This document shows, one piece after another, positions 1 to 61,290 of a stretch of 64,000 bases of DNA. The position numbers were made by a program, and so were the translations under genes. Positions within the stretch are counted from its first letter, which is position 1. Each line of letters starts with the position of its first letter. This DNA is from Ipomoea triloba (taxonomy: Eukaryota; Streptophyta; Magnoliopsida; Solanales; Convolvulaceae), in contig NC_044916.1 of the NCBI RefSeq assembly GCF_003576645.1, positions 5,208,071-5,272,070 of the forward strand, in the 5' to 3' direction. The notes under the pieces are model-generated. The model was given only the letters and a program-made list of their open reading frames with translations, had not been told where the DNA came from and made no database searches.

Positions 1-3000
1 TTTAATGTTAAAGCATGATTTGGCAGGCCTGAAGCTCTAATAGTGTTTAAGAATTCAGGTGTATGGACATTTGCAAGTACAGTAGAAGAACCATCAGCTT
101 TGCAAGCTGTGTCAGAACTGAAATATGTCTTCCCTTCACCTATAGTCAAGTCGGACATATATTCATTTACTTCATTGACAACTTGTAATGTTGGTGCTAA
201 AATAGCACTGCTATGAAAGCAGCTATCATCAATTATACCACTGTTGAACTGAGGGAAAGTACTATTAACAATAGTTGCAATAGGATCACCATTACATTTC
301 AACAACATTTGAGAAGGGATATCAACCTCAGCGTAACCATCGTTATCTTCGCCAATAGTACCATCACCTATTGAAGAAAGCCAGTTTGCAAATTCTTCCA
401 TTCGTTGTTGATCCAAACCAGGTTGCATACTATTTAACCTCAAATTCTTTGTTAGGCGCATAACTTTGCAATGCTTCCAAAGGTATGATGAATTGATAGC
501 TGAAGAAACAATGTCTTGTCTTGATCCTTTTGGCACAATAGGTAAAATTTGCCTAAAGTCACCTCCGAATACCACTGTTTTACCTCCAAATGTCCTATGA
601 CAACTGTCTTGATTAACAAATCTTAATATATCTCGCATTGTTCGACTGTCTTGATTAACAAATCTTAATATATCTCGCATTGTTCGATCCAAAGCCTCAA
701 AACAGTGCAATATATCTCGCATTGTTCGATCCAAAGCCTCAAAACAGTGCTTGTGCATCAGCATTGTTCGATCCAAAGCCTCAAAACAGTGCTTGTGCAT
801 CATTGGTGCTTCATCCCAAATTATCAACTTCGCTGCAACAATGAGATCTGCCAACTGGCTAATTATCAACTTCGCTGCAACAATGAGATCTGCCAACTGG
901 CTACCTTGATGAATATTGCAAGTTGACTCTTCATTGATAGAAATAGGTATTGCAAATCTAGAGTGTGCTGTCCGTCCTCCCGGCAAAAGCAAAGATGCTA
1001 TACCACTGAATGCCACATTGATAGCTATTTGACCTTTAGCTCTAATATAAGCTGATAATGCCCTCCAAAGAAATGTTTTGCCAGTACCACCATACCCGTA
1101 AACAAAGTACAATCCACCCTTGTTAGAATAAACATCAGAAATAACAGCATCATAAATTGACCTTTGTTCATCTATAAGTTGAGCATGAAGTAACTGACTT
1201 TCTTTAGCAAGCAACTCACGATCGTATGATAACTCTTCCAAGATCAACCTATTGTTAGTCGTAAGAGACAATTCTTCTGAGACTAAAGGCACGTCTGGAA
1301 AATCCTTCAAACTCTTATTGTAAAGTAATAGCAGTTTTTCCAACTGTATCAGTGCAAACTCCTTTTTTTCTTGGTCGTTTAGAAACAAATCTGAGGAATT
1401 AAAATTATAAATTTGTTAGTTAAAAGAAAGGCTAATTTACAATGTAATTAAGATAATATACATCATTTGATGTTAAGAAAGTATGGACAAATGAATACCT
1501 TGATCATTTAATACTTTTCGTCGATTGTATTGAGCATCTTCTGCCAGATATGTCCAAACCTCGTTCCAAACATATTCAGGCCTCCCCATTGTGTTTGCCA
1601 TTAAAAGTGTGACAAACAACTTTCTTAGTGAATGTGCAGTAGACCATTCGCTAGCTTCCTTAATTGCATCAATGTACTCAAGATCATCATCTAGTAACCC
1701 ACGGGCATAACATGCATCCTTAAAAGTGTTGTACTCTTTTCCATTATATGTTTTGATGTCTTCAAAACTCTGAGGTCCTCGAACTATGTTCAATAGGCAA
1801 CGAAGATAATAAAGCTCCCCAGTACCAGGTGGTACGTAAAAAATACGACCAATTGAAAAACCACGTTGCCTTGGCTGCCATTGCCGCACATTTTTTTTCC
1901 AAACAAATTTATTCGGCATTTCAATATAACATAGCAATCTCGCTTCAGAGTATTTCTTGTTAGCTTCAAACCATTCAGTAAACATGCTTTCGCCCAAGGT
2001 CTGTCGATTCAAAATGGTTTCCACATCTTCATCGTTTTCAAAGTATACTGTTTGGCTATCTGGCAAGTGGAAACTAAGTCGCTCCACAGCTGGAGTTCTG
2101 CATTGTATGTCATAGCTAAGTAACCGACAAGTAGCCTCTGAAGCTGAAACATACCTACAGTCATAGTACATGTTTATCTCATCAACAACCTCAACACCAT
2201 TACCTTCTGTGGAACTTCTATAGAATTCGGCAGTGACTCGATCATTGCCTTTGTTGATATACTTGAATAAGTACTTGATAGATCTGGACTGGTTGCACCA
2301 TTCAACATTCAAATGTGCCCTGTACCTCAACAACAAATATCTGTATGAGGCACCACATACCTATTGTCCATTTGAATACCATTCTTTGTTATTGTTCTTC
2401 CATCATCACGTCTTCTATATATAGAGTATCCATCTTGATCAAAACTTGATGAATCAACAAATCTTTTGGGGAAGTATTTGGTACATCGTCCATTGACCAT
2501 GCAAGGTGAGTTAGATCTAGCAACACCGCAAGGACCATGCACCATGAATTCTTCGACAGCCTTATAGTAATCTTTATCAATCTCTATATCAGGAATTTCC
2601 GCTGAAATGAATTTATCAATGGAATAAGGAGATGATTCAATCCTGTTGGATCCAAGAAACAACAGGATATGTGCGTGTGGTAGTCCTCTTTTTTGAAATT
2701 CAATTGTGTATATTACTGTTCAATACAAAAAAAAATATTAAATTAATATCAAAACAATTGAAAAATGGCATACTACAATGATAAGTAAACAATGAATTAG
2801 TGACTTACATGCTTTGACGAGACCAAAGAGTTCTCCTGATTTTAATTCTTTAACCAAACTATCAAGCTTCATTTTGAAGACGCGACTAACAATATCGGGT
2901 CTATCTTCTGTCCGCAAACCTCTAACTTCAATAAACCGTTGGATTTCATGCCACTTTGGGTTACATGTAAATGTAATGAATAAGTTTGGATAGCCTATCC

Positions 3001-5405
3001 AACGACATATAGCCATGGCATTTTGGTAGTTTTGTATCATATACCTTGCACCTCCTGTAAAGCTTGATGGTAAGATAATTCTCTTCCCTTGGGTTGAAGG
3101 GTCTATATCTCCCCTAAATAATGCATCTGACAACCCTTTGTATTGTTCACAACGCAATGCCTTCTGATTGTTTCTTATAAACATAAGTCTACCAGATTCA
3201 ACCATTATATTGTATAAGCATCGACCAAGAATTGTTGAAACAATCTCTTTGAATGCAACAATGTAGAAAGTTCACTTCTCCTTTCTTGTAACCTAAAAGC
3301 AAAATACTCCCGTGGTGTTAAACGTTGCCTTGATCCAAGTAGTTGACTACGATTAGCTGCAAATTGGATGTCATCCCTATACCCATCCTCTCCATATGGA
3401 AACAAAATTGGATATTGCATAGGTAAGTAAGCAGGGTTGTGTTCACTGATTCTTTTGAGTTTCCCTGATTTTGACTCCACCAAAATATCGCGAAAACCCA
3501 TATCTGGATCTAGGTCACCAACTATCAATGCAGCCACCTCAGATACTGTAGGTAAATTATAGGTCCTAGCATCCTTGCTCATCTTCCCTAGCAGTCTCAT
3601 TTTTACCTCAGTTCGTGAGTTGTTATGAATCTCAGACCTAGCCATTCTAAATGACTTAACCAGTACATTGTTGTCATCCAGTGCTTTTTTTATGTCGTTT
3701 ATCACCTCTAGGTGTAAAGAAGTTGTACCGCTTTCATGCCTACATAGAAAAAAAATGAATTAAATTCTTTTATTTGATACAATAACAAAATAAGATGATG
3801 AAATAAGAATAGGTGTAAGAGTATATGTGCATACCTTATTGAATCAACACGATTGTTAATCTCATTCTCGGTGTCGTGAATGTACAATTGGGCAAATTTT
3901 GGTTGAGCACCATCCATGGGCAGCAAACTACCTATCAAATGGAAGTTCTGGTCGTTTATACGGTAGACAGGTGGACCACCACCATTGTTCACTGTCCTGT
4001 CTACTTTCCCACCCATTGAAGTAAAACAGAACATATTGTTGTAAGACCTAATATTTTGCAAGAAGTGGCTTCTCTTCGGACCATCCGTAAAAAATAGATC
4101 ATATAATTCTTTTGGTGGTTTTGTGAGAGGTGGTAGTTTTATCTTTCCATGTCCACAACACAATGAATATTTAGTAATACCATTAAGATATAACTTGTTC
4201 AACTGTTCCTCGTACCAACAAAGTGCCCCACAATGTAAGCATGAATCACAAGCATCACCAAAGTCGGCATAATCAACTATAATAAAATGAACAAAGTTTA
4301 AGTTGTAACCCAAAAAAAAAACAATTATTTGTAGCTAGCATATATTTAAAAAATGAGAAAAAACAAATACCAGGTAAAACATCTGGGATGATATATTCCT
4401 GTTCGCTACATTCATTGAAGTCGCTGTGGAGGTTACGGCCATCAGAAGCAGACCGATTGTTTGCATTGATTAATCGACTACTTGGTTTTTTGATTAAGTT
4501 AGTGATAGATTCACTATAACCTGAACAGAGTAACCACATGTTTAGGGTAACAATTAAAATTTCCAATAAAATTTGTATACTATAACTATATTTGACTAAC
4601 AAAAAAAAAGAGTAAAGATTATTAAATTATATACCAATACCGGCATGTGTTGTAGAAGGCCCAACTTGACCGTCTATATGTGGTTGGTTAATTGCAACAT
4701 TTTCTAAAAGAATTGAAGACATCCATAATACAAACCATCAGTCAAGCAACCAAGTTTTTAAAAACTATGAAATACAATTTCTAATAATCTATTATATTTT
4801 GATAAGTAAGTTTTTTTAAAAAAATACATACCATTAGTCAAGACACTATTTGGAGTACGGAGACTTGGTTGGAGTACACGTCCTACTCTTTGATGAGTGT
4901 GACTACCAGTAAGGGATTCCATTGTTAAATCTGTAGCCATAAGCTCCGAACCGTTAAAATAATAAGTTTACTAACTGTTAACAACATATTTATTAGTTTT
5001 CGGCAAGATTTCTCATTAATAATTTAATGAAACAATTCTAACAAATTCACTTTGTAACTTTAATTAAAAAGCATATTAAAGACAAAGATTTCATTAACTA
5101 TACCTGTAGCCTGGTTTACTGGCGGGGTGCTCGAAATTGCAGATAAGGGTGTGCGATTATGAACGTTACGAACACTAACTTCTTTTGAGCATACTAATAA
5201 GACATTACATAAGTGTTATTCGAATTACAATGTAATAGTACAGTTAAAAGAAAATGAAGTGAGTACTAACCATTAGTTAATACGCTCAACGGCGTAGATA
5301 AGGATGCTTGAAAAACTCCACAGAAAGGTCTAGGAGTCTTATAAGATGATAACTGGCTTTGTTGTGGTGGATTGCTATTCTCATGACCCAACGAATTTTC
5401 ATTTT
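1..5405 (-). pseudogene. Helitron RepHel (Rep/PIF1-like helicase), 5' exons to helicase core, cut off by window edge
   Basis: This encodes the rolling-circle transposase-helicase of a Helitron. Read on the minus strand it has small N-terminal exons (about 5405-4370), a Cys-rich start (CLHCGALCWYEE, near 4240), the Helitron-like N domain (3705-2815), the Rep HUH motif GLPHAHILLF near 2680, the SRSIKYLFKYINKG block near 2270, and a PIF1-type helicase from about 1390 leftwards with Walker A GYGGTGKT near 1090 and Walker B IIWDEAPMM near 810. The reading is broken twice. Near 3205 there are five extra bases (ATATA) between DAYT and MVES, and near 2350 one base is missing before RYLLLRY. Four 14-codon duplications at 603-902 are probably assembly artefacts. 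The C-terminal helicase part lies beyond base 1. Family assignment is secure; decay is inferred from the frameshifts, which could partly be sequencing errors. Confidence 0.88.
603..902. repeat. Four exact 42-bp tandem duplications in the RepHel helicase
   Basis: Pairs 603-644/645-686, 667-708/709-750, 719-760/761-802 and 819-860/861-902 are each perfect and exactly 42 bp. They overlap one another as a walk along the gene. Removing one copy of each restores the conserved helicase protein (WDEAPMMHKHCFEALDRTMRD). Identical length and identity point to joined contigs with unmerged overlaps. Confidence 0.9.
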
Positions 5406-8723: not shown

Positions 8724-11162
8724 TCAGTTTTTTGAGTTTTGGTCAAATCCTAATTCACTATCCTTTTCCAGCTTGATAATAGCAGTGTGTGTCTTCTTCT
8801 TTGGACACTGGGTGGATGAAAACTCATCCAAAAGCCTTCTTTTAACTGCTTCACTATCATTGCCACCACCTTTAGCCATTTGAGTTAATGCATTTGGCAG
8901 AGGACTTTCAACCTCTTCATCTGGAAAAAAAAAAAGCCCTAACACATAATAAATAGCAAGAGTTAGACGACCTTGAAATTTGTAAAAAATGTGAAGTTTG
9001 TGAACTCAAAATTTAAAAAAGTAATTACCGCATCAGAATCTAAGTCATCATCCAATGGCTCAACAGAATTAGTTGCCTTCTGCTTAGTATCATTCACCAG
9101 CCCAGGACAATACTGGTTCAAAACCGCACTGTCATCTTTGATTTGCATGATTGGAAAAGCAAGGTTGCGTTTCTCTAATCGATCCCTCTCAACATTAATC
9201 TTGAATAGCATTCCTCTACCAACCAATGATTCAATTTCTTTAGGAATTTTGGTTGGAACCTGCATTTTAAGCCAAAGTTACTCTGTAATTTTCCTATTTT
9301 CAATAGGAAAAGCTTGTGCTAGAGCTTAGAAAGGAAGTAATAAAATGCTTACCTTTGGCTGCATAGCCTTAAGCTCTTCAGCTGTGATGCCCCCCAATAG
9401 CTCAAGTGCCTCACGATCCCAAAGTAAGAATGGTGCATTACCTTTGGCATCATACACTCTAATTTTTATCTTATATCTTAACTTAGGTTTATCGCAGTGA
9501 GTTCCACACTTACCACATACATACATCCCACCCCTTAGATCTACCTTTTTATTACACCTAGCTCCTATGCAAGAAAGATAATACCAGTCAATCAAATTAC
9601 AATCTAGCTCCAGAATAATACATGGCACCCAATATTCCCTAGTCTGCAAATGAATCCAATCATTGTGTTAAAAAAGTTTTTAATGAAACTTGAAAATAAT
9701 ATACCAATAAAGACTCTAAAGAAATGTACCTCACTCCTTTCAAAGAGTTCAGAAATGGTACTTAAAACCATATTAGAACTGCTTTGATCACCCAAAGTGT
9801 AAGTTGAATAACTGAGGCTGGAATTTGATGTGATGCTCTTCAAAGGAGTTGGTTGATTACATAGTCTAATAAAAAGCATGTTGACAATTATAAAAAGAAA
9901 CACTGCAAATTTTATAGACAGGAAAGCACTACAGTTGTATAAAAAAGTGTAACTATTAAGATAGAAGATTACCTGTCTTTGAAATCAGTAAACTCATCGC
10001 AGTCCTGGTTAAACAACAGTTGGGTTGCATCATAGGAGCTACAAATTTTGACTTCTCCACCTGCATTTTAACGAAGTTTATATTTTCAGGTACCACGTGG
10101 TTGAAAGGTACTCCATGTAACAGAAAAATCAAATGGCTCACAGAAAACAAATGGCTCACAGAAAAGGTAATTCAATCTACTTACTGTTTTCTGGCACTTT
10201 AACCCTACACATTTGAATAAGCACAATGACTGGTTCTTTTAAGTCAGATTGGCAAAAGGGCATGACCTTTTCCACATGCTGATCCCATACTGTACATTTC
10301 AGTTGAATGCCCCTGATAATGCAAGTGGGATAAGTTGAGTTGAGTGTAGAAGGTATAGTAAATGCTATATTTATAACTGTAGACTTATTTTAAATCCTCG
10401 ATTACAAAATCGATCAGTTTAGAAGGCCTCCCATTGATAAGCTTATCCAATGGTGAGAAGATTTGCACCACACGACCAATGACATCTGCCATTAAACAAA
10501 GTATAGTCAATAAGATATATGATTAGAGAGTAATATGACTATTTAAGTAGAAAAAAATAACAAAACAGTATAACATACCAATCAAAACCTTTGGATCAAT
10601 TCCTTCTAGACTCTTGATTGAGTCAAAAGTCTGCAAACGAAACATTTTTCTAGGAAAATCTACACCTTTGTATTCTTTGACCAGGGTTTTATGATAGTAC
10701 TGCAACATGAACGCACTACTACAGGTCCTATAGGTATAGATAGGACTGATTACCAGGAAATTTTTGATGCAATAGGCATGTCCTTCTATGAATGAGTTAG
10801 TAACAGAAACATTGTTCCCTGGAATATTCAAATGCACATAGGAACCCTATAACAGCAAAAAAAATTTATTTACAGTCAGAAGAACTTACTGTTAGTGAAG
10901 GAAGTATTTATTTACAGTCAGAAGAACTTACTGTTAGTGAAGGAAGTTTAAGAAAAACTAATACTGTTACCTCTTCATCATGGAATACACATTCCCTAGA
11001 TCTGACTTTGTCATCTTCATCATGGAATACACATTCCCTAGATCTGACTTTGTCACTGTATCTGCTTTGTACAATATCGTAGGTACGTATCAGGCGCAAT
11101 CTCATGGCAGCAATAGTCTTCCTATCATCAATATCACGCGCAAGGATGTACATTGGAGCCAT
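8724..11162 (-). CDS. Helitron-associated RPA70-like single-stranded DNA-binding protein
   Basis: A replication protein A large-subunit homologue of the kind carried by plant Helitrons; it would bind single-stranded DNA. It starts at ATG 11162 (MAPMYILARDIDDRKTIAAM). Likely exons are 11162-10971, 10846-10579, about 10485-10390, about 10318-10190, 10070-9970, 9885-9731, 9645-9352, 9262-9030 and 8920-8724. The first exons form an OB-fold (RECVFHDE, then YCIKNFLVISPIYTYR). The 9645-9352 exon is the C-terminal RPA domain with zinc-ribbon cysteines (CIGARC then CGKCGTHC). The exon 3 donor reads AA-ATAAGT instead of AG-GTAAGT, so that intron may not splice and the gene may be inactive. Two 42-bp duplications (10864-10947 in intron 1, 10972-11055 in exon 1) are likely artefacts. 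Same strand as RepHel, upstream of it. Middle exon ends are approximate. Confidence 0.8.
10864..11055. repeat. Two exact 42-bp tandem duplications in the RPA-like gene
   Basis: 10864-10905/10906-10947 and 10972-11013/11014-11055 are perfect 42-bp pairs of the same kind as at 603-902. The second doubles the peptide DKVRSRECVFHDE. They are interpreted as assembly duplicates. Confidence 0.9.
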
Positions 11163-20683: not shown

Positions 20684-23600
20684 ATGGTATGTAGTACTTC
20701 AATTAACAGTTTTTTTTTCTTTTACAAATTTTATTCTAATAGTTTGTTCATCAATATATTCTTTTGCATATTTTATGTGCAGGAAAATGAAGAGCTTATT
20801 AAAGGGAAAGTGGATTGGCGAGGAAGAACAGCTAGGAAGGGCAAGCATGGAGGAATCCGAGCATCTCTCTTCATATTAGGTAACAAGCACTATTCGATGG
20901 TGTGCATATGGTAATTCCCGCCTTGTAACCCTAGTTAGTTAGTAAAAGACCACAAGAGATAAATTAACTTAATTAATTAGGTTGTTTATAGCTGATCGAC
21001 GTTCGATTCCCCTTGGGCCAGTTCCCATGCCTCCCAGAGCGAACGTGGGTAGACCTGGACCATTAAACGGACAAAGAAAGACCCCGTGAACTTACCAAAA
21101 AAAATAGCTGACTGACTCAAGTTTTTTTTTTTTTTTAGTACTACTGACTCTACTATTGACCGACTCAAGTTAAAAAGCTAATAGACTGCACTCGCTGAGA
21201 GTAATTTATAATGTTGTGATGATTGCTAAGTTAAAGAGTTTGATTAATTTGAATGGGATTGCTCTAAATTTAGATGTTTTGTGCACTAATAATAAGATGA
21301 GATTACTATATATGTTGAACAGGAACATTTGCATTTGAGAACATGGCTACAATAGTGTTGGGGTTGACCTTTTTGACATACTTCAATGGAGTGATGCACT
21401 TCAACCTTGCTGACGCAGCCAACCACGTCACCAACTTCCTTGGGACTAATTACATTCTTACCGTTCTTATTGCCGTCTTAGCTGATACTTATACTGGCAG
21501 ATTCCTTGCTGTCCTCCTTTCTGCGTGGATCGAGTTCTTGGTATATATTCATCATATATATCTATCTTTGCTTATATGTTATATATAAATCATTATAAAC
21601 AGTACTCTTGTATGCGTTCATAATGTTAGGACTCCTATTAGTCTCCTATTAGTTAGCCAATTCTATAGCTAAGTATACTTCTATCATTTACATATAGTTA
21701 CTGCATGTAATTCCCAAGGGTTTTAGAACTGCTAATACAAGACTCAATCCATAATATATCTACAAATTATATAAAAGTCAATAATCCTAAGATTCTAAAA
21801 AAAAATATATGTTTCTGTAATCAATTGTAATAATAATGTGTTAATTATACATTGGACTTATTGTCTTATACACTTACAAATTCTTTCCTATTTTACCCTT
21901 TTATCTACTATCTTATACATTAATTTCATTTTTTATTAGAATTTTTTTTAATACAACTGACTCTATTATATTGTAGTATCTGTTCACCTCTACTTTTCTT
22001 AACCTATTGAAGCACAAAGAGTCAATTCGCATCCACTGAGGCTTGATCTCATGACCTCCATATGAAGGAGTTACTACATGCCATCTGAGCATAAGATGCT
22101 TAGCACATCACTAAGATCTTGTGGTCTAGTGACACCCAGTTGTACTCTCATGGGTTCAGCTCCAGTGAATACGATATTGACTCTTTGTACTTAGTAGGTT
22201 GAAAGTAGTTATGAACAATATTGCACTGTAACAGAGTCAATAGTACTAAACACATCCTATCATAACCTGCAGGGGCTTGGACTGTTGGCATTCCAGGCTC
22301 ACCACCGCAAGCTGAAACCTCCACCATGCATCCCAAACCCTAGCGATCCATCCGTGCAATGCGAGGAAGTTAGCGGCCGCAACGCCGCCATACTCTTCCT
22401 GGCAGTTTACTTGATTGCCCTGGGCTCCGCCGGGGTGAAGTCGGCGGTGCCGTCGCACGGCGCCGACCAGTTCGACGAGAAGGAGCCGAAGGAGGCGGCG
22501 CAGATGTCCAGTTTTTTTAACTGGCTTTTGCTGGGACTGTGCGTGGGAGCCGCGGCTAGTCTAACGCTGATCGTGTGGATTATCCAGGATAAAGGATGGG
22601 ATAAGGGGTTTGGTGTGTGTACCTTGGCTATGTTCCTTGGTGGGATAACTTTTTCTGCGGGATTGCCGTTCTACCGTATATATGTCATTCAAGGGAGTAG
22701 TGCCATCACTCGTGTTGTGCAGGTATATTATCAGGGCTCTAAGGGATGGTTAAATCTCTAGAAAGCTAGCATTTTTTTTTTACTGGTTAGAGGATGGAAT
22801 TAGGAGATAAAAATTGTAATTGGGTATGAAAAAAATAAGGTTGAAATAAATTAGAAATTTAAATTATAAATTGTTTGGTAAAGAAGAATAGAATTATGAG
22901 AAATGGGAGGAAAAATGTGATATAAAGACAAAAATACCATTTTATAATAATAATAATACTCATCATCAAGGGCAAAAGGGTCATTTATTTATTCCCCTAT
23001 CTCCACTACTCCGAATTACAAATCCTATGGGGGTTCAAGAATTCCAATTTCACAAATGGAGAGAATTGTAATTCGAGTGACTAAAGAATTGTGTTGTAAT
23101 TGAATTGTAACTACATTCAACCAAACAATACATTTAAACTTTTGGTTAGAACTTATAGAAATGGTATTTTTAACCACTTGGGGCTGAATTTATTAGAAAT
23201 GGTTTTTTTCTTTATATATTTTTAAAAAATTAAATAATTAATGGTCTCATAGGGCTAACCATTTTTCACTGCACTTTCTTTAACCTGCAGGTCTATGTTG
23301 CAGCCATGAGGAACAGAAATCTTCAGCTTCCTGCAGACTCCAGTGTGCTATATGAGATCAGCAAGGACAGAGAAGCTGCAAATGAAACTGATTTTCTACC
23401 TCACACTAGCAAATACAGGTATGATACCTCCCATCTATCTATCTTGCTCTACATGCATAGTTTTAAGTAACAAGGAAAACCCCAATCAGTAGGTGTACAT
23501 TGAGAAAACTCACTTTATGATCCTAGTCACTAGTCAGAAGAACTACATGAAAATAAGTCAGCCTAGTTTGCTTGTAGTTAATCGATTGAAACTTGAAACC

Positions 23601-24844
23601 AAGAAGCAAATAGGCTACTCTTGCTAAGAGGAAAACTTGTAAATTTATGGTTCTCCAAGTGGTCGAAAATGTGGTCGGAGCTAGGATTTTCGACCAAAAC
23701 TCAGGGAATTCCGACCACTTTTTGATGGTTGGAAAATTACAAATTTTCCCCAGTGCAAGGAAACAACATGACCAACTTGTGTGGATTGCACCCTCTACAT
23801 GCATAATTTGACATAACTTGTTAGGGTCAAGTGCTGCGAAGACGTAGTTAACTTTATTCTTTATATACCGTCATCCCTTTACTAGCTTCGGCCAAACAAT
23901 TCCCCTAGCCACTAATTGTTGGATTTGGCCCGTTACTGACTTCTGTTGTGTTTTCACCCACTTTTTGCAGGTTCTTGGATAAAGCAGCCATCCAGACATC
24001 ACCAGAACAGTCCCAAAACCCAAATCCATGGAAGCTATGCACAGTCACACAAGTGGAGAACGCCAAAATCCTGCTAAGCATGATCCCAGTTTTCTTATGC
24101 ACAGTAATAATGACCCTCTGCTTAGCCCAACTCCAAACATTCTCAATCCAGCAAGGCACCACAATGGACATAACCATCACCAAATCCTTCAGCATCCCAG
24201 TCCCATCCCTCCCCATCCTCCCCATCACTTTCCTCATCATCCTAATCCCCGTCTACGACCAAATCCTCGTCCCCTTCCTCCGCAAACTCACCGGAATCCC
24301 CACCGGAATCACCTACCTCCAGCGCATCGGCGTCGGCCTCGTCCTCTCCTGCCTCTCCATGGCCACGGCCTCAATCCTCGAAGTCAAGCGCAAGAAACTC
24401 GCCCGAGAACACAACATGGTCGACGCTATCCCTATTCTCCAGCCGCTCCCGATTAGCGTGTTCTGGCTTTCCATCCAGTACTTCATATTCGGGATTGCTG
24501 ACATGTTCACTTACGTGGGATTGCTCGAGTTTTTCTACTCGCAGGCGCCCAGGGAGCTGAAATCCGTGTCGTCTTGCTTTCTTTGGAGCTCCATGTCGCT
24601 TGGGTACTTCTTGAGCTCGATTATGGTGAGGGTGGTTAACGCGGCCACGAAGGGGGGGACCGCGAGTGGGGGGTGGTTGGCTGGGAATAATATTAATAGG
24701 AACCATTTGGACCTGTTTTATGGTTTGTTGTCCGCTATGAGCTTCGTGAATTTCTTGGTTTATTTGGTGGTTGCTACCAGGTATAAGTATAGGCAGCAAA
24801 AGGTGCAGCCGGCGGATGATGAGGGTGATGGTGAAATGCAGTAA
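20684..24844 (+). CDS. NRT1/PTR family (NPF) transporter
   Basis: A 12-TM major-facilitator transporter of the plant NPF family, whose members move nitrate, peptides, hormones or glucosides across membranes. Six coding exons: 20684-20686 (ATG only), 20783-20879, 21323-21540, 22273-22722, 23291-23418, 23971-24844. They join in phase to 589 aa, normal for the family. Visible family features are [15 protein letters not shown] and [13 protein letters not shown] at the N-terminus, [68 protein letters not shown] and the C-terminal block [22 protein letters not shown]1 reads FENMA, without the ExxER motif typical of proton-coupled members. Subfamily and substrate cannot be set by eye. Exons 4 and 6 are much GC-richer than the introns. 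Intron 3 holds two SINEs. Confidence 0.93.
20687..20782 (+). other. NPF intron 1 after a one-codon exon
   Basis: The 96-bp intron follows the ATG directly (ATG-GTATGT ... TTATGTGCAG-GAAAAT). Its length is a multiple of three and it has no in-frame stop. Retention would add a hydrophobic 32-residue segment before ENEELIKG. Splicing gives the family-like start M-ENEELIKG, so splicing is preferred. Confidence 0.7.
20996..21110 (+). mobile_element. Truncated tRNA-derived SINE, 3' part (NPF intron 2)
   Basis: It starts at a pol III B-box-like GTTCGATTCC (about 21002) and continues with CCCATGCCTCCCAGAGCGAA and an A-rich tail. The complete copy is on the minus strand at 31020-31195. The A-box half is missing here. 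Confidence 0.6.
21945..22115 (-). mobile_element. tRNA-derived SINE (NPF intron 3)
   Basis: Minus-strand SINE: A-box-like GCTCAGATGG near 22080-22090, B-box region near 22041-22056 (GGTCATGAGATCAAGCC on the minus strand), the family tail with TTGACTCTTTGTGCTTC, and an A-rich 3' end at 21945. It sits head to head with the next SINE. Confidence 0.7.
22117..22258 (+). mobile_element. tRNA-derived SINE (NPF intron 3)
   Basis: Plus-strand SINE: A box TGGTCTAGTGA at 22122, B box GGTTCAGCTCC at 22153, then the same tail family (GACTCTTTGTACTTAGTAGG to AACAGAGTCAATAG). It ends 15 bp before exon 4. Confidence 0.7.
22790..23135. mobile_element. Probable MITE in NPF intron 4
   Basis: Intron 4 carries a block with loosely inverted ends (GGAATTAGGAG..TTGTAATTGG against TTGTAATTGAATTGTAACTACA) and phrases such as TTGTTTGGTA and CCAAACAATA, common in hAT/Tourist MITEs. 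Ends and TSD are unclear. Confidence 0.35.
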
Positions 24845-25835: not shown

Positions 25836-27122
25836 ATGGCGTCGAGCGATGAAACGCCGGGACAAATGCCACCGGGAGACGGGTCAGTGCCGCCGGGGAA
25901 GGCGATGTCGGTGGCGCAGAAAGCGGTGGACAAGGGAGTTCAGTTGATCCAGTCGCTGAAACCCATGAAGCAGATGGGGCAACACGTCTGCACCTTCGCT
26001 CTCTACAGCCATGACTTGAGCCGCCAGATCGAGACTCACCACTACGTCGCTCGCCTTAACCACGACTTCCTCCAGTGCGCCGTCTACGATTCCGATGCTC
26101 CTAACGCCCGTCTTATTGGTATAATTAATACTAATTCATGCATTTTATTTTTTTTTGACTGTAAGTCTAGTATAGTGCTGAGATCATCAATTATATTGTG
26201 TGGGTAAAAATTGGGAGTCTCTATAATATCTTTCAAAAACAAAATTATACTAAGAAGACCACCTCATGTGTGATGAATTTGATGACATGGGTGTTTTTAC
26301 TGTTCATTAGTATATGATAAAATATACTCAGTAATTTTTTTTTTTTTTTTTTTTTTTGGTTTGTACAGGCGTTGAATATATAGTCTCGGAGAAGATCTTT
26401 GATACCCTCCCGCCTGAAGAGCAGAAACTTTGGCACTCCCATGCCTATGAGGTTTTAATTTCTTCATTCAAAAAAAAAACAACATATTTGCATACAAAAT
26501 AGTTAATTTTATTTCCTTCCATTCCTAAAGTTAACGTTAGGACTAATATCACTTTTCATTTTCTCTCTTTAATTCTGTTATCAGTTTTAGTCCTCAACCT
26601 ATGATTATTTCTTCTTCGTCACTTTTGGTACTCTAATAATTTTCAACAATTTTTCATTAGGAAGGACAAAATAATCGAAATTAAAAGTTAATTATTAATG
26701 GTTCTTTATTATATTAAAATTAAAATTATTAATTTGGGTTTGGTTCACAGATAATCTCGGGGCTTTGGGTGAACCCAGGAGTCCCAGAAATGGTGCAAAA
26801 ACAAGAACTGCAACAACTTTCTCCGACGTACGGCAAGTTCTGGTGCACGTGGCAAGTGGACAGAGGCGACAGGCTCCCGCTGGGGGCGCCGGCGTTGATG
26901 GTGTCGCCGCAAGGGGAGAGCATGGGGACGGTTAAGCCGGAGCTGATCAGAAAGAGAGACGAGAAGTACAAGATCTCGTCGGAGGAGCTCGGGAAAAGCA
27001 GGGTGGATGTTTTGGTGCCGGAAAATATAAACCCCAACGCCGACTACTGGGTGCAGACCGGAAAAGGGTTCGCCGTCGACGTAGAGCAAGTTGAAATGAA
27101 GAAACATTCGCCTTTCCCTTGA
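25836..27122 (+). CDS. Oil-body-associated protein (OBAP, DUF1264)
   Basis: Member of the DUF1264/OBAP family, found on seed lipid droplets where it has been linked to oil-body size and stability. Exons 25836-26118, 26369-26451 and 26751-27122 give a 245-aa protein, normal length. Family blocks: [77 protein letters not shown], and [19 protein letters not shown]. It ends at TGA after KKHSPFP. Splice junctions are GT-AG and in phase; the intron 1 acceptor is preceded by a 20-plus base T run. No signal peptide. The start agrees with family N-termini. The OBAP1/OBAP2 class was not settled. Confidence 0.92.
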
Positions 27123-27399: not shown

Positions 27400-27595
27400 N
27401 TTTTTTTTTTTTTTTTTTTTTTTTTTTTGGCAATTGGACCGTTGATATTCCATCAGCATATTCCAGAGGCCATGTCTCCTTCCCCAAACAATTCTTCCCC
27501 TTTCGATCATATTCCTCAGCCAAAATCATCGTACTGGAAAACCCACTAAATTCCCAACCTTCACAACTTCTCCCTCTTCTCAAATTTCCATTTCC
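27123..27595. other. OBAP 3' flank and CPDase promoter with 59-bp poly-T run
   Basis: 27370-27428 is almost pure T with an N at 27400, so its true length is unknown. The remaining sequence is the OBAP 3'UTR and the short promoter/5'UTR of the next gene. Confidence 0.7.
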
Positions 27596-31518: not shown

Positions 31519-33482
31519 TTATCTATTGGATCCTGTGAATAACTCAAACAGGCCACAGCAACCCTTCCAAGATGTTGTTTGCACTGATCGTAGAGCTGAA
31601 CCAGCTTGATGCTGCAGAGTTTCAAAAAGAAAGAAATTTTACCAAACATAAAAAGTAAAACATAAACTTCAATATGCAAATTAGAGCAACCTTAGGAAAA
31701 AGTTAATCACGAAGCAATTTGTCAAAATAAAGGACCTGATTATAAGAGCACTCAGAAAGCTCAGAATCTTTAACAGGGTCATCTCCAATGCTTTCATCAA
31801 TTATGGGGGCATTGTAAGATAGAGTAAGCGTATCGCTCTTTTCCATAGTAGCATAGTCCTTTGGTTCTGATGCTTTCACATCATTATCACGGGATATCTG
31901 AATAGCTTCATCCGCTTTTTCCCCTACTCCCTCGTCTCCAATACTAGCACAAACTTTGGGAACATCATGTAACTGAGTTACTTTCTCTCCATTTACTCGA
32001 GTTGCAAAGTGTGCTGCATCTAATGCTTCTGCATCATTGTCATGGGATGTCTGAACAGCTTCATCCTCCATTTTCCCCAAGTCCATTTTCGCTACACCTT
32101 CTGATACAGAAGCATTCTCCTCAACTACGCCCATTTTTTTATCCTCGTTTTCCTTCAGTCCTGATCCATCAAAAACACACTTTTCAACTTGCACTTCGTT
32201 CTCAGACATTGCAGCCTTGTCCAAGTCGGAAGTAAATACTGTTCCCACATCATTGACTTTACCGGCAGATAAAGAATCAACTTCTTTCACTAAATCAACA
32301 GCAGGAGTGTCATCTACAACAATTTTATTCTTACGGGCAGCAGTGGATCCATCTTCTGAGTCGCTGCTGCTACTCAAGCTGCTGAATAAGCTTCCTTCGT
32401 TAGATTCTTTTGGGGCTTCAGTGCACTCGATGCTTATATCCTTGCTCTGGGGTACATCCTCGACCTCGAATTCCCTTTCGAGGTGAAGAGCACTCTCCTC
32501 TTCTATAGTTCCTTTCTCCATTTCTTCACCTCCATTTGTCATCCCGTCAGATTTGTGCTCGTGAATTGATGACTGATCAAGCGACCCATCCTCCTGCTTA
32601 TCAACCTCTTCAACGTGAATACCACTCTCCTCTTCCATAGTTCCCTTCTCCATTTCTCCGCCTCCATTTGTCATCTCATCAGATTTGTGCTCGTGAATTA
32701 ATGACTGATCAAGTGAACCATCCTCCTTGTCAACCTCTTCCTCCTCCCGATCGATTAATTCATGGAAGTTATGGTTATCTTGAGATGCAGGGGAACTAAC
32801 ATCCCCTCCATCACTGTCCTTGTCATTGTGATGCTCCAAATCCTCTTCCCCTGCCATAGTTTAATCAGCCAGAGAGCAATTCAACACAGAATCAACCAAA
32901 AAGAACCAAAAATCATTAACCAAACAACATCCACTTCAAATCAAAATCAAACCAAAGTCAGCATTAACACCAATCAATTGAAAACTTATGACATCAAAAT
33001 GCAACAAGATTAACCTAACAACTCCTATTTTCCAGCAAAACCATAATTTCCAGTCAAGAAAGATGAATGTAGAAAAATAAACTATAAAATAAAGTGGTAC
33101 AACCCATAGCTACTTTTAAAACTTAATTGGGGGTCAGATGGGGCAACCCTTTGAGAAAACGACGCTAAATCGAATCCAAATAAGAGAAAACAAGCGATAC
33201 CCACAAAGCCAAACTCTGAGGGACAGACAAACTGTAAAGGTCTTCAACAAAAGAAAATGATTGAATCCAAACCCATATGGGTCTGGTCTCAACACTCTCA
33301 AAACCCATAAAAATCAAGTCTTTACACATAGAGACACCCACATGTGCCATTGTACTTAACTACAGAGAGCGTAGAGTACCATTGGAGTGAGGAAGCGTAG
33401 AGTTGGGTAGGTGGGGCGCCCCCTGAACTTGCAATCCCTTCTTTTTCTTGGCAGCTTTTCGCTTCTTAGCACCTGAAGGCAT
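31519..33482 (-). CDS. Acidic plant protein of unknown function with lysine-rich start and GLFE tail
   Basis: I know of no function. Three exons (33482-33380, 32850-31736, 31611-31519) join in phase to 436 aa. The N-terminus MPSGAKKRKAAKKKK is a strong basic cluster, probably a nuclear or nucleolar signal. The long exon 2 product is very acidic, Ser/Glu/Asp-rich and likely disordered. It includes a tandem repeat of about 43 residues (HEHKSDEMTNGGGEMEKG then HEHKSDGMTNGGEEMEKG) and a SLFSSLSSSSDSEDGS patch. The last exon ends TTSWKGCCGLFELFTGSNR, which resembles the ending of other uncharacterised plant proteins as I recall them. ATG 33482 is supported because the in-frame MAG at 32857 is just the CAG of the exon 2 acceptor. 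Confidence 0.75.
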
Positions 33483-36827: not shown

Positions 36828-38201
36828 TGTTGGAAAAATAGCACTAAAATGACATTTAAGTGGCCATTTTGTGGTACAATTAAAGTGGGGTCCACAACCT
36901 ATTTGGGTTGGGTCAAAGTGGATTCGGGTTCTTCATAGTGAGACGAAGAGATCCATATATTGTACGCTCAAAATAGATAATGGGTGAATGAGAAATTGAT
37001 TCTCAAAGTAAACCCATTTGAGATGGAATTTGAGGTGAGGAAAAGCTTATATAGCTTTGTCCCACATTGGTTGGGAATGAAGATTTGCCCCACTATAAAT
37101 ACAAGAGGCTTTTTAAGGCTAACTGACTTGTATGGCATAGAGGCTCTCTCTCGTGCGCACGTGGGCACGAATGTCGTTCGGAAAATTGGCGGGCCGGCCG
37201 ATCTGACCTCTCAAAATGGTAGTTCCTCTTGGTATTACGTTAGTGGGTGTTAATGTTGTTACGTGGGCCCGAATGTCGTTCGGAAAATTGGCGGGCCGGC
37301 CTTGTGGGCTAAATTAAGTGATCTGACCTCTCAAAATGGTAGTTCCATCGAATGTCGTTCGAAAAATTGGCGGGCCGGCCTTGTGGGCTACGAATGTCGT
37401 TCGAAAAATTGGCGGGCCGGCCTTGTGGGCTAAATTAAGTGATCTGACCTCTCACGGGCCGGCCTTGTGGGCTAAATTAAGTGATCTGACCTCTCAAAAT
37501 GGTAGTTCCTCTTGGTATTACGTTAGTGGGTGTTAATGTTGTTACGTGGGCCCGAATGTCGTTCGAAAAATTGGCGGGCCGGCCTTGTGGGCTACGAATG
37601 TCGTTCGAAAAATTGGCGGGCCGGCCTTGTGGGCTAAATTAAGTGATCTGACCTCTCACGGGCCGGCCTTGTGGGCTAAATTAAGTGATCTGACCTCTCA
37701 AAATGGTAGTTCCTCTTGGTATTACGTTAGTGGGTGTTAATGTTGTTACGTGGGCACGAATGTCGTTCGGAAAATTGGCGGGCCGGCCTTGTGGGCTAAA
37801 TTAAGTGATCTGACGTCTCAAAATGGTAGTTCCTCTTGGTATTATGTTAGTGGGTGTTAATGTTGTTACGTGGGCCCGAATATCGTTCGAAAAATTGGCG
37901 GGCCGGCCTTGTGGGCTAAATTAAGTGATCTGACGTCTCAAAATGGTAGTTCCTCTTGGTATTATGTTAGTGGGTGTTAATGTTGGGGCACGAATGTCGT
38001 TCGGAAAATTGGCGGGCCAGCCTTGTGGGCTAAGTTAAGTGATCTGACCTCTCAAAATGGTAGTTCCTCTTGGTATTACGTTAGTGGTGTTAATGTTGGT
38101 TGCCTTTGTGGTTTATTTTCCTGGTGTTTTTATCCTTCGTGGATATTTATTTATTTGTGTTTTCCATTTTCTAGTGATTTTCGAGAATCAAACTACTTAC
38201 A
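36828..38201. mobile_element. Probable solo LTR inserted in the hAT MITE
   Basis: A 1374-bp insert beginning TGTTGG and ending TTACA (the TGT...ACA ends of LTRs). It is flanked by TTATT (36823-36827) and CTATT (38202-38206), a 5-bp duplication with one mismatch. Excising it rebuilds the uninterrupted MITE sequence. It has a promoter-like TATA (CCACTATAAATACAAG, about 37091) on the plus strand and then a tandem array. No gag-pol is present, so it is read as a solo LTR. The internal ORFs are not genes. Confidence 0.72.
37168..38095. repeat. 120-bp tandem repeat array within the LTR
   Basis: The motif CGAATGTCGTTCG (or a one-base variant) starts at 37168, 37270, 37349, 37391, 37553, 37595, 37757, 37877 and 37991. 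The clean period is about 120 bp. The 204-bp spacing from 37349 to 37553 and from 37553 to 37757 equals 120 plus two 42-bp duplications. Units contain GGCGGGCCGGCC and are far GC-richer than the surroundings. Confidence 0.85.
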
Positions 38202-40111: not shown

Positions 40112-40561
40112 NNNNNNNNNNNNNNNNNNNNNNNNNNNNNNNNNNNNNNNNNNNNNNNNNNNNNNNNNNNNNNNNNNNNNNNNNNNNNNNNNNNNNNNNN
40201 NNNNNNNNNNNNNNNNNNNNNNNNNNNNNNNNNNNNNNNNNNNNNNNNNNNNNNNNNNNNNNNNNNNNNNNNNNNNNNNNNNNNNNNNNNNNNNNNNNNN
40301 NNNNNNNNNNNNNNNNNNNNNNNNNNNNNNNNNNNNNNNNNNNNNNNNNNNNNNNNNNNNNNNNNNNNNNNNNNNNNNNNNNNNNNNNNNNNNNNNNNNN
40401 NNNNNNNNNNNNNNNNNNNNNNNNNNNNNNNNNNNNNNNNNNNNNNNNNNNNNNNNNNNNNNNNNNNNNNNNNNNNNNNNNNNNNNNNNNNNNNNNNNNN
40501 NNNNNNNNNNNNNNNNNNNNNNNNNNNNNNNNNNNNNNNNNNNNNNNNNNNNNNNNNNNNN
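40112..40561. other. Assembly gap (450 N)
   Basis: A run of 450 Ns flanked on both sides by poly-A, so the gap probably reflects an A-tailed repeat that could not be assembled. Confidence 0.99.

Positions 40562-41016: not shown

Positions 41017-41082
<66 letters not shown>
41017..41082. repeat. (AAT)n microsatellite
   Basis: About 22 uninterrupted AAT repeats. Confidence 0.95.
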
Positions 41083-49131: not shown

Positions 49132-52100
49132 ATGGGTTTTGTGGAAGAACAAAAAGAGGAGAAAAGTAAGAAGAAGAAAAATGAAGAACAGAAAGTCCCA
49201 TTCTACAAGCTGTTTACGTTCGCCGATGAGCTGGACTTGTGTCTGATGATCGGTGGCACGTTGGGGGCCATCGGCAACGGGCTAGCGCAGCCGATGATGA
49301 CCGTCATCTTCGGACAGCTCATAAATTCTTTCGGCACTACGGATCCCTCGCATGCTGTTCATGAAGTCTCGAAGGTACTACGTTTGTTTGTTTGTTTGTC
49401 TGTCACATGCATCTGGGCTGTCTTTATCTTGGATCATAAACTTTCATTTATGGTGGTTTACCAAGCAAAGATGTGTACTGTGAATCATGTTAACGACAGA
49501 TCAGTTCTACTTTAACTAGAATCTTGCCCCAATAGGAGTGATCCAGTGGTGATAATTCTGTTATGAGTTTGATTCTTGTCAATACTTTTCTGGTCCAGTT
49601 TTTCAAGGCTATTATTACACATTAGTAGGGTTTACGTAGGATCATACACCCTTTTAGGTAGTGAGGGCAGGTTTTCCTAACACCCTCTTAGTCGACCCTG
49701 TTTACTTCCTTTATATGGTTTCATGCAATTACACAAGAGTATATTTACCTCTTAATTGTGGTTTGTAAGCTATTACACAGGACTAGGTTTACTCTGGACA
49801 CATCCTTTGAATAATTGCTATAGATTTCTCAAGATTAGGGTTTACTCTGGAAACATCATTGAATAATTGTTGTAGGTTTCTAAAAACAAATTGGTTGATC
49901 AAACTTGGATTATTAATTATTTTGGAGTTTTTATTAGTGTTATGAAGAGAAAGCTAGAAACATATTCTTACATAGTATTATTCTAGGTAGGATTATATTA
50001 GGGTTCATAATCTGTGGTGGTATTATGAGATTAAGGTATATAATTTAAAGTGGTGCTATCTAGGATATTTTCATCCTTTCTTTGTACTAAAGCAACACTT
50101 TTTTAGTTGTGTTAACAGATGACCTTAGAAGCATCGGATACTATTCTCTTTACAATCTTTTGTAAGCAAAGCAAAAGAAAGAAACAAATAAAATAAAATA
50201 TCCAACAAACAATACCCGAACTCACAAGAGGCTAAAAATGGAAAAACAAATACTGTATTATTAACTTTTCTTCAACAATTTTTCTTAATATTTGCTTTTT
50301 TAGTTTTAAAATTTGATATTAAAATTGTACTTTTAGTATCTCAATTGTTTCTAATTTATAAATCTAGTCTTTCTCTCAAGACTAAAAATTCTTAGTTTTC
50401 GTTGGACCGGGTTTAGATTTTACTACTTGAATCACAAAGAGTCTATGCCTAAAGAGTCTATGCCTCCATTAAGGTTCAAACATGTAACCCTCGTTTGAGA
50501 GAATTAAAATTATGTCGCTTTACCACAAAGTCTTCAGCTATAATTTTCTTTTTTAATATTAATGAATTAAAAAATGAATTTTTTTTTTCCAATAGTGGGA
50601 GACATAATTATGCTGCGCATGTAATATAAGCTTGTTGGAGAAACTGCTTATGCAACTACAACCATTTCCATTTTCCAAGAAGTATCAACGCAAAGTGGCA
50701 CTATCACATCTGACATGTGACATGAAACATTTCTGTTCCATTCCCAATTCTATTTTTGTCCCCTACTTTAATAGTATTAATAAATTTCAGAATCATTCCA
50801 TAAGATAATTTAACATCCCTGATTCCATGGCATCATTTTTATTATTTATATAATTTCCTAAGTACATGCATATCACTGTATATAATATACTTAAGTGCGA
50901 CTGTGGGGTCGATCGAACACTAAATTTATGACTAAAGGAATTTTTATTCTGCTGATTAAATGTTTGACATAAAATTATAGTTGACTCAATAATGAAACTG
51001 TTTATTGTGTGACTTCTAGATATGTGTCAAGTACGTGTATCTTGCCATTGGCTCGGGCATAGCTTCGTATTTGCGTAAGTGAATTGGATATATAAGAATG
51101 TTTTTTTGAGAATTAGTGTATGTTGTCAACATTTAAGGGAAAATAAAATGTGTTTTTTTAATCCTGTGATTTATAGAGATGTCTTGTTGGATGGTTACTG
51201 GAGAGCGACAGGCTGCTCGTATAAGGACACTGTACTTGCAGACAATTCTAAGACAGGACATTGCATTCTTTGACACTGAAACTACAACCGGAGAGGTTAT
51301 AGGTCGAATGTCTGGTGATACAATTCTCATTCAAGAAGCCATGGGCGAAAAGGTATCTATAAGTTTAAACTTTATTCAATTCTCTTGCCCACAAAAGACG
51401 AAATTCCCTCGCCCTCAAGGTTCCACATGCCAACACGACATAATATAGAGGTAAATCACGGTGACTAAGCGGCCTTTTAGGTGGGAGAACCAGGACATGG
51501 TGCCCACAAAGTACCCACTATATTGGATGTAACTTCCACACTGCTAGGGCTTGATTCTCGATCCTAACTAGCTATATCTTTGCTCACAATCTACTACCTA
51601 AGAACCAAATGAGCTGCCCGTGAAGGCAACATTGTATTGTTCAATTCCCTTAATTGTTTAATTGCCTCGCCTCCAACCCAACATAATAGAGGGGTAAATC
51701 ACGGTGACTAAGCGGCCCTTTATGTGGGAAAATCCGAGCATTATGCCCACATAGTATCCACCACATTGACTGTAACTTCCACACTAGTAGGACTCGATCA
51801 CCGATCCTATATCTTTGCTTACCATCTATCACCCAAGAACCAAATAAGCTGCCCGTGAAGGCAACCCTATATTGTTCAATTCCCTTAATCCTAACTGTTG
51901 TTTGATTATTTCCAGGTTGGGAAGTTCATACAGTTCACTTCAACATTCCTGGGAGGATTCACCATTGCCTTCATAAAAGGATGGCGCCTCGCATTGGTTT
52001 TGTCTTCGTGCATACCCGCCCTGGTTATAGCCGGAGGATTCATGGCGCTGTTAATGTCGAAAATGTCAAGCCGCGGCCAAGTTGCTTATGCACAGGCTGG

Positions 52101-55100
52101 AAATGTAGTGGAGCAGACAATTGGAGGGATTAGAACTGTAATTACAATCTCACTATCTCATCTATATATATACACTGCAGATTTAATTTAAACGCTCTCA
52201 ACTAAAAGTCTAAGCTGATAGGTTGCTTCTTTCACCGGAGAGAAACGCGCGATCGACCAATATGATAGCAAGCTGAAAATTGCTTATAAATCTACAGTCC
52301 AGCAAGGGATGGCTTCTGGCATAGGATTGGGAGTTATATTGCTAATTGTGTTTAGCACTTATGGGCTAGCGGTTTGGTATGGTGGGAAGCTGATATTGCA
52401 CAATGGGTACACAGGAGGAGAGGTGATTAATGTTCTTATGGCCATCATGAATGGAGGAATGTAAGCAACCATTTACAATCATTTTTTAATTCCATTATAT
52501 ATATATACGTGTTAGCGAATTCTGAACTACTGAAAAATTGCACTGCAACTACTATAGCTATAAGTCCTATACAGTGCATTCATGTAGTAGTTGCAGTGCA
52601 ATCCTTCAGCAGTTTGCAGGATTTCAACAATTTTTGTGTTTACTGATTCAGGATTGAAATGACAATGCTAGTGCATTGGGGCAGACAAGCAACTGCTACA
52701 TGAATGCACTACAGCTAGAAGTCCTATGCAGTACATTCATGTAGTAATTGCAGTGCAATCCTTCAGTAGTTTGCAGGATTTCAACAATTTTTGTGTTTAC
52801 TGATTCATGATTGAAATGACAATGTTAGTGCACTGGGGCAGACGAGTCCATCCCTGAACGCATTTTCGTCGGGGCAAGCTGCAGCGTACAAGATGTTTCA
52901 AACGATACATCGAAAACCAGTGATCGATGTGTACGACATGAGTGGCATGGAGCTGGAAGACATGAGGGGCGAAATCGAGCTGAAAGATGTGTATTTCAAG
53001 TACCCAGCTCGAAAAGATGTGCAGATTTTTGCAGGGTTTTCGATATACATCCCCAGTGGGAAAACCGCGGCTCTTGTTGGCCAAAGTGGGAGTGGCAAGT
53101 CTACCATCATCAGTATGCTGGAAAGGTTCTATGATCCTGATTCTGGAGAAGTGCTTTTAGATGGTGTTAATTTGAAGAAATTTAAGGTGAGATGGTTGAG
53201 GCAACAAATGGGGTTAGTGAGCCAAGAGCCAATATTGTTTGCCACTAGCATAAAAGAGAACATAAGCTATGGCAAGGAAAATGCTACAGATGCAGAGATT
53301 AGAACTGCAATAGAGCTTGCAAATGCTGCCAAATTCCTTGACAAGCTCCCTCAGGTAATAATAAATGTGCCCGCAGTCTGGCCTTTCTGTTCTTTTAGTT
53401 GAGACGAAACACATACTTCAGGTTACTGTAATGTCGTGTTTTTGTGTAGGGGCTCGATACAATGGTTGGTGAGCACGGAACACAGTTATCAGGTGGACAA
53501 AAACAAAGGATTGCCATAGCCCGGGCCATTCTAAAGAACCCGAAAATCCTCCTCCTCGACGAAGCTACCAGTGCCTTGGATGCAGAATCGGAACGAATTG
53601 TGCAAGATGCACTCGACAAGGTCATGGCCAATAGGACCACTGTCGTTGTCGCTCATCGTCTGACTACAATCCGAAATGCTGACCTAATAGCAGTCGTGCA
53701 AACGGGCAAACTCGTGGAACAAGGTATGAATCTTGGAGAATACAACTTAGCCTGCAATAAAACAGGACTACTTATCATTTTATTTGATATTTTTTTTGGT
53801 TGAATGTTAGGAACTCATGATGAGTTGATTAAAGACCCTAATGGAGCATATACACAGCTAGTGAAAATGCAGCAAGGAAGCAAGAAAGAAGAGAAGAAAG
53901 AATTGGAAACAAGTATGGTGGATCAATCAAGTGTAGAAGATCAGTTAACTAGATCATCAAGCCTCATGTTATCTGTGCTGAAAAGATCTATGAGCCATGG
54001 ATCATCACGACACTCTTTCACGCATAGTTATCCGATTCCAGGGCTGATTGACATCAACGAATCCGAAATTGCAGATCAACAAGAAGATGCAGAACCAGAT
54101 GCCAAAACACTGAAGCAAAGGAAGAATGTGTCTATTGGAAGGCTTGCCTCCCTGAACAAGCCCGAGATTCCAATTTTGTTTCTCGGAGTTTTGGCTGCGT
54201 GCTTTCACGGAGTAATCTTCCCCATATTCGGCCTCCTGCTCTCCACCGTCATCAAGATTTTCTTCGAGCCCCCGCCACAGCTGAAAAAGGATTCCAAGTT
54301 CTGGGCACTCATGTATGTTCTCCTTGGTATAGCTACTTTGCTGGCTGTCCCCATCCAGAATTTCTTCTTTGGAATCGCGGGGGGGAAACTTATCCAGAGA
54401 ATCCGTTCTTTAACATTCAGGAAAGTCGTCTACCAAGAAATTAGCTGGTTTGATGATCCTGCAAACTCAAGGTACCAATAATACACATATATTAAATGTA
54501 TGTGTAGTTTTGTTATTAGCTTAAACTTTTAGTTGAGATGGAACACATCTTCGATCAATTCCCTCGTGCTGAGTTTAGTTTCTCGTTTCAGTGGTGCAGT
54601 TGGGGCGAGATTATCCACTGATGCATCCACTGTCAGGAGCCTTGTAGGTGATGCTTTGGCTCTAATTGTCCAAAACATAGCAACGGTTGTGGCAGGCGTC
54701 ATAATTGCCTTCACGGCTAATTGGATCCTAGCATTAGTCGTCCTCGTTGTGGTTCCACTACTAGGCTTGCAAGGCTTTATGCAGATGAGGTTGTATGCAG
54801 GATTTAGCGCTGACGCGAAGGTAAATTTACTCCTAACATTAACACTGACCCGAGTCCTTTAATAGTACGTGTTTTGATTGTAACAACAATATATATATAT
54901 AGGTGATGTATGAAGAAGCAAGTCAAGTTGCAAATGATGCGGTTGGGAGCATAAGAACGGTGGCGTCGTTTTGTGCAGAAGAGAAGGTGATGGCCATGTA
55001 TCAGAAGAAATGTGAAGAGCCTGTGAAGCAAGGGGTTAAAGTAGGGCTTATAAGTGGAGGGGGTTTAGGCCTTGGTTCTTTGGTGCTCTATCTTACAAAC

Positions 55101-60573: not shown

Positions 60574-61290
60574 TGTTGGGGAATTAAAGCTTAAAAAATA
60601 CCCTTTAATTTCCAGACTGGTACTTAGCCACAATAAACCTGCCATTTAAGGACATCAAAAGGCAATCACAGTTAGTTGTTTGGATGAAAAATATAATCAT
60701 ATGCATGCATAAGAAATCAATACCACGAAACTTAATAAAAACAAAAACAAGAATTCATTAAAACCCTAAGCAAAATTCAGACAACGGTCTCCAAATTCCG
60801 GAAACAATAAAACACAAAATTACCGATTATTTTAGAAGAAAATCAAATACCTAAATCTCAGACAACAGAAATTTCGAATATTTAAGCCGGAAACAGAAAA
60901 TTCGATAGACATAAGGATTGAAAAGCCCAGGACATAAACTAAAACCAAGACAGGCAAATTAGTGCAAAATTGAAATCATAAATTACAAATCTTGATTAGC
61001 TCAGAGCTTAATTTACAGTAAATTAAACGCGGAGGAGACGGGATTACACTTACATGCAAGGAGCTCAATCAAATCGCCACAGGTTCTTGAGAAGAGAACC
61101 GATCGCTAAAGAGAGAGAGATGCATAGATGCATGAAGGCAAACCAAAAAAGGAAAAAAAGAATGAATAGAGACGCGAAAGGAGAGGAGAGCGAGGGGCTA
61201 ACGAGGCCCCTCGTCGGAGAAGTCCAAGGCGACGGAGAGCCGGCACGGGAGCAGTGGCGAAAGAGAGTGTGTAAGCAAAAAGGTGAAGAG
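60574..61290 (-). promoter_or_regulatory. GTE 5'UTR with intron
   Basis: A donor GCAT-GTAAGTG at 61053 and acceptor GGCAG at 60639 define a 415-bp 5'UTR intron. The upstream UTR exon, from about 61290 to 61054, is purine/GA-rich. No ATG lies between the acceptor and 60573. Confidence 0.7.

Follow-up and report, generated by a model that had tools for sequence, protein, structure and literature searches.

Genes and repeats of the window

The window, i.e. the whole 64-kb stretch of Ipomoea triloba DNA that was analysed, opens within a Helitron PIF1-like helicase reading frame of 462 amino acids on the minus strand (3..1388), which runs off the window start and is cut by that edge. This frame matches the Pfam family PF05970 (PIF1) with an E value of 9.6e-93, the match being split in three stretches, and a Helitron_like_N domain (Pfam PF14214) lies at 2738-3205, also on the minus strand. 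Because the PIF1-like helicase stands near a Helitron_like_N domain on the same strand, the element is, by its predicted domains, a Helitron. Helitrons have the terminal sequences TC...CTRR with a hairpin. Further along, a gene resembling replication protein A (RPA) is encoded on the minus strand, with a PF08646 domain in its later part (9326-9667) and relatives named replication protein A. It appears to contain an intron at about 10847-10970, running from GTAACAG to TTATAG, as judged from the GT...AG borders and from relatives in which ...HDEE runs directly into GSYV.

The remaining features include fragments of ordinary plant genes, namely those for a POT-family (PTR2) transporter (22285-24844, with the Pfam match in 23948-24844), an ABC transporter (49132-56246, with Pfam matches in 52893-53402 and 55644-56246), a DUF1264 protein (26769-27122) and a bromodomain protein (59581-60645). 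An uncharacterised protein is encoded at 31703-32857, and a non-coding tandem array of 114-120-bp units, to which no strand is assigned, occupies 37166..38099, its start having been read by eye. A gap of 450 Ns at 40112-40561 and a single N at 27400 within a poly(T) run are signs of a gapped draft.

Exact 42-bp tandem pairs and the lengths of other duplications

A preliminary description of this DNA had pointed to four perfect 42-bp tandem pairs in the helicase gene, at 603/645, 667/709, 719/761 and 819/861, and at each of these positions the two copies are indeed identical letter by letter. Pair 1 covers 603..686 (603-644/645-686, junction 645), pair 2 covers 667..750 (667-708/709-750, junction 709, 64 bp past that of pair 1), pair 3 covers 719..802 (719-760/761-802, junction 761, 52 bp past that of pair 2) and pair 4 covers 819..902 (819-860/861-902, junction 861, 100 bp past that of pair 3). 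At lag 42 the matches extend over 43, 42, 42 and 43 bases, which is one complete unit and, at most, a single base matched by chance, and the pairs starting at 603, 667 and 719 overlap in series. An all-lag scan (15-200) of the 64-kb window revealed six further exact pairs at lag 42, none of the ten being assigned to a strand. Two of the six lie in the RPA-like gene, with pair 5 (10864..10947) inside the inferred intron and pair 6 (10972..11055) in the exon that precedes it, where it adds 14 extra residues in frame. The other four belong to the non-coding array and comprise pair 7 (37349..37432), pair 8 (37413..37496), pair 9 (37553..37636), whose 42 bases are those of pair 7 with C instead of T as the left neighbour, and pair 10 (37617..37700), whose 42 bases are those of pair 8.

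All ten pairs in the window are perfect, with a lag of exactly 42, and their junctions form three tight clusters (645-861, 10906-11014 and 37391-37659). These clusters are hosted by three unrelated sequences, i.e. a Helitron PIF1-type helicase, an RPA-like gene and a non-coding array; transposon-type, RPA-like and array sequences of this kind are presumably multi-copy. A chance origin was rejected, given that 20 shuffled versions of the window (first-order Markov) gave longest runs of 10-14 bases at lags 20-200.

It had also been proposed that an artefact would appear as a spike at 42 in the genome-wide spectrum of duplication lengths, and within the window this spike is present, as the ten pairs make up all (10/10) of the non-microsatellite exact tandem duplications of 25-200 bp; no other non-microsatellite unit in this size range is exactly duplicated in the 64-kb window. 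Apart from the ten pairs, complete exact duplications with periods of 15-200 are limited to ATA microsatellites, a poly(T) run and a handful of units of 15 or 18 bp, and above 24 bp the only other exact periods are 27 and 30, both at the ATA microsatellite at 41017. Under an illustrative model with lengths spread evenly between 20 and 100 bp, the probability that all ten coincide by chance is about 7e-18. Near-identical pairs were sought at lags 36, 38, 40, 41, 42, 43, 44, 45 and 48. The ten pairs of 80-99.99% identity detected at lag 42 are the edges of the exact ten, every lag-42 pair of 75-99% identity falls within 42 bases of them, and away from these edges the window holds no 42-bp-unit pair of 75-99% identity, so that no aged ones were seen. 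In the same identity range, lags 40, 41, 43, 44, 45 and 48 gave no pairs in the window, and lags 36 and 38 gave some weak ones elsewhere in it.

Real duplications had been expected to vary in length and to have diverged, and this holds for the longer tandem repeats found elsewhere in the window, whose lengths include 114, 120, 132 and 157 bp and which are diverged. One is a 132-bp (44-residue) tandem duplication at 32483-32727, with 90% matches, in the uncharacterised protein frame. Of 12 relatives of this protein, 3 (from I. batatas and I. nil) also have a repeat with a lag of 44 residues, and because of this counterpart the 132-bp duplication is likely to be real and old. The best relative of the protein among the matches listed is from I. 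batatas (95% identity), and no I. triloba relative is among them, though one could hide in a 90% cluster. Another diverged repeat, a 157-bp tandem duplication at 52551-52843 with 93% matches, lies just before the ABC-transporter frame.

The presence of such real-looking duplications, e.g. the 132-bp pair, together with the fact that the letters of the 42-bp pairs stand in the given sequence, could be taken to mean that the latter are likewise real and recent, the outcome of repair or replication in which 42-bp units happened to be produced. This is very improbable, considering that the other duplications vary in length and are diverged whereas the 42-bp ones are all equal and perfect, that several of the pairs are serial and overlapping (603/667/719), and that neither the 14 aligned helicase relatives nor the 12 RPA-like relatives in the count share any of them at the same place.

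Relatives of the affected proteins

With regard to the helicase, the pairs had been described as in-frame insertions of 14 residues at the Walker B region, in agreement with which the reading frame stays open through all four; the Walker B motif LIIWDEAP is flanked by pair 4 just before it and by pairs 1-3 after it. The nearest relatives among the 120 of 5091 matches listed are Ipomoea proteins, and all relatives were compared as proteins. The excess of 168 bp (56 residues, or 4 x 14) that had been predicted for the window is missing in all 14 aligned relatives, which were chosen from the 120 listed and do not include the proteins P0016 and P0052 discussed below. In their alignment to the helicase frame the missing residues form a gap of 14 and a second gap of 42, and the two nearest aligned relatives are 96% and 92% identical to the frame, the I. 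triloba protein P0003 being 96% identical and without the extra residues. The spacing between Walker A and FGGK, as measured by pattern, is 161 residues in the window and 98-105 in 82 of the 120 listed relatives (105 residues in 79, 100 in two and 98 in one, with 38 unmeasurable by pattern), so that the window exceeds the common value of 105 by 56. The codon that includes base 602, which adjoins pair 1, encodes Cys in the window, in place of the Gly of P0001 and P0003, the two nearest copies from I. triloba; this difference would be expected if a piece of assembled sequence had ended at a variant between copies, and with eight flanking bases examined it could be due to chance.

The open frame through the four helicase pairs might also suggest a selected coding domain of 14-residue tandem repeats. 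Against this, the repeated 14-residue units differ from one helicase pair to another and the 14 aligned relatives have none. The idea is refuted by the equal unit length found in the intron and the non-coding array; because pairs also lie in these sequences, selection on the protein cannot explain the number 42, and a repeat domain of this kind is so improbable that it can practically be dismissed.

In the RPA-like gene, where pair 6 is in an exon and pair 5 would fall within the next intron, the motif of pair 6 occurs singly in all 12 relatives that fit the search pattern and is doubled in none, these being 12 of 27 relatives, with the 15 outside the motif pattern left out of the count. P0143, the one I. 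triloba RPA-like protein among the matches listed, differs by eye from the window frames at several residues, and among the relatives listed for the RPA-like gene and for the protein at 31703-32857 no I. triloba protein identical to the window frames came up.

Exact tandem duplications of the same length occur in other proteins of this species. Complete exact tandem duplications of 6-149 residues are present in two of the 159 proteins fetched, P0016 and P0052, which contain four in all, two per protein and each of 14 residues; those of P0052 overlap in series, as do pairs in the window. Among the 120 listed helicase relatives, exact 14-residue pairs are found in 2 of 21 from I. triloba, in none of 33 from I. 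nil and in none of the 66 others, the species being read from the protein names. Inspection by eye places three of the four pairs elsewhere in the protein than those of the window, and the first pair of P0016 lies next to the position of pair 4, with which it has four residues in common, and is built of a different unit. Because the 14-residue pairs differ in place or in unit, those of P0016 and P0052 and those of the window are not, on a comparison of their sequences, one inherited insertion. The database models of P0016 and P0052 probably contain false insertions, and their pairs lend indirect support to a length spike that would extend over the whole assembly. The excess of 14-residue pairs in I. 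triloba (2/21) is small.

Unmerged overlaps as a probable origin of the pairs

The pairs share one fixed length and are perfect, they occur in three unrelated contexts, and the residues they add are missing from the relatives examined. The preliminary description had interpreted the helicase pairs as artefacts, and this view is supported by the spike at 42 in the window and by the relatives that lack the 56 residues. Judged on the sequence evidence, we hold with very high confidence that the ten exact 42-bp tandem pairs are, as a class, assembly errors. The four in the helicase are almost certainly not a biological feature and would have added false residues to the protein.

In the proposed mechanism, pieces with common 42-base ends would have been written in series inside repeats with their overlap unmerged, leaving the 42 bases in the sequence twice. 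The pieces would most likely be paths that adjoin one another in a de Bruijn graph with k = 43, for which the overlap is k-1, and each such error in the helicase would add 14 residues without breaking the frame, 42 bases being 14 codons. We infer the graph origin, the value of k = 43 and the program step alike, and regard the graph-path form of the error as the somewhat better bet. On this view the inner pieces bounded by the junctions would measure 64, 52, 100, 108, 64, 140 and 64 bp, all of them longer than 43.

The non-coding array allows a closer look at these pieces and serves as an internal control. Its core-word spacings are 120, 163, 204, 120, 120 and 114, of which 204 equals 120 + 84, the native unit with 42 added twice. 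With two pairs discounted, the array unit around 37338-37501 measures about 79 bp (163 - 84), some 41 bp less than 120. A 64-bp piece is present twice and identical in the array, and both of its neighbours overlap it by 42 each time; its first 42-mer (37349/37553) has T and C as left neighbours, which is the kind of branching expected of a putative piece end. The 140-bp piece at 37455-37594 passes a C/A divergence that is seen in the window after a shared 97-base prefix, and a single, undoubled copy of the 42-mer at 37413 stands at 37292. Strict unresolved unitigs with k = 43 fit the array only in part, because the 140-bp piece crosses a branch and one 42-mer stands undoubled. It must therefore be assumed that the pieces were read-threaded graph paths or the product of local gap filling. 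SOAPdenovo2 uses odd values of k and leaves adjacent contigs with k bases in common, i.e. an odd overlap. Because its overlap would be odd, the error may have been made at a step other than SOAPdenovo2.

Fixed-length overlaps might instead have come from gap closing, long-read gap filling or polishing, and not from graph traversal. The three tight clusters are as filled gaps would give, the undoubled 42-mer at 37292 also favours such a step, and the published I. triloba pipeline had three gap-filling steps (PMC6214957). Since the simplest reading of a constant 42 is an overlap set by k, this variant is the less probable of the two, and we consider it a tenable but doubtful source. According to the published accounts, the genome of I. 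triloba NCNSP0323, to which the window probably belongs, was produced with SOAPdenovo2, GapCloser, PBJelly and Pilon (PMC6214957), and SOAPdenovo2 with PacBio gap filling is also given in PMC6797701.

Related errors have been described in other assemblies. In the chloroplast genome of the oak Quercus lobata, for which SOAPdenovo2 was also used, contig ends were concatenated without being merged and gave an artificial tandem repeat in two places (PMC5100847), a likeness to the pairs described here. On the other hand, these two chloroplast cases were recognised by low read coverage and followed GapFiller and a scaffold arrangement by the authors (PMC5100847), whereas the window holds ten exact 42-bp cases in 64 kb of nuclear DNA that were found from the letters alone. 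It has been shown more generally that false duplications in genome assemblies, in which duplicated sequence lacks proper read support, lead to wrong gene models, and that a SOAPdenovo assembly had a k-mer duplication of 5.2% (PMC9516828). The units in the window differ from the false duplications of that account in being directly adjacent and of one fixed short length. As for the length itself, work on COBRA has demonstrated that, wherever a repeat interrupts the graph, the ends of de Bruijn contigs have exactly maxK or maxK-1 bases in common, the assemblers tested being metaSPAdes, MEGAHIT and IDBA_UD (PMC10914622). COBRA uses this overlap for joining contigs, whereas in the window it would have been left in twice, and its three assemblers differ from those named in the I. 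triloba paper. Nothing on overlap merging was found in the consulted part of PMC3626529, and the titles and abstract openings in partial match lists contained no report of 42-bp pairs in an Ipomoea assembly.

The idea that some genuine process in this lineage of Ipomoea makes exact, serial 42-bp tandem duplications in multi-copy DNA, both coding and non-coding, has in our judgement a very slim chance of being correct. The pairs, as assembly errors, are a warning and not a discovery. Errors whose length is a multiple of three pass frame checks and can enter protein databases as believable insertions. The quality of short-read assemblies can be checked at little cost by searching them for exact tandem pairs that all have one length.
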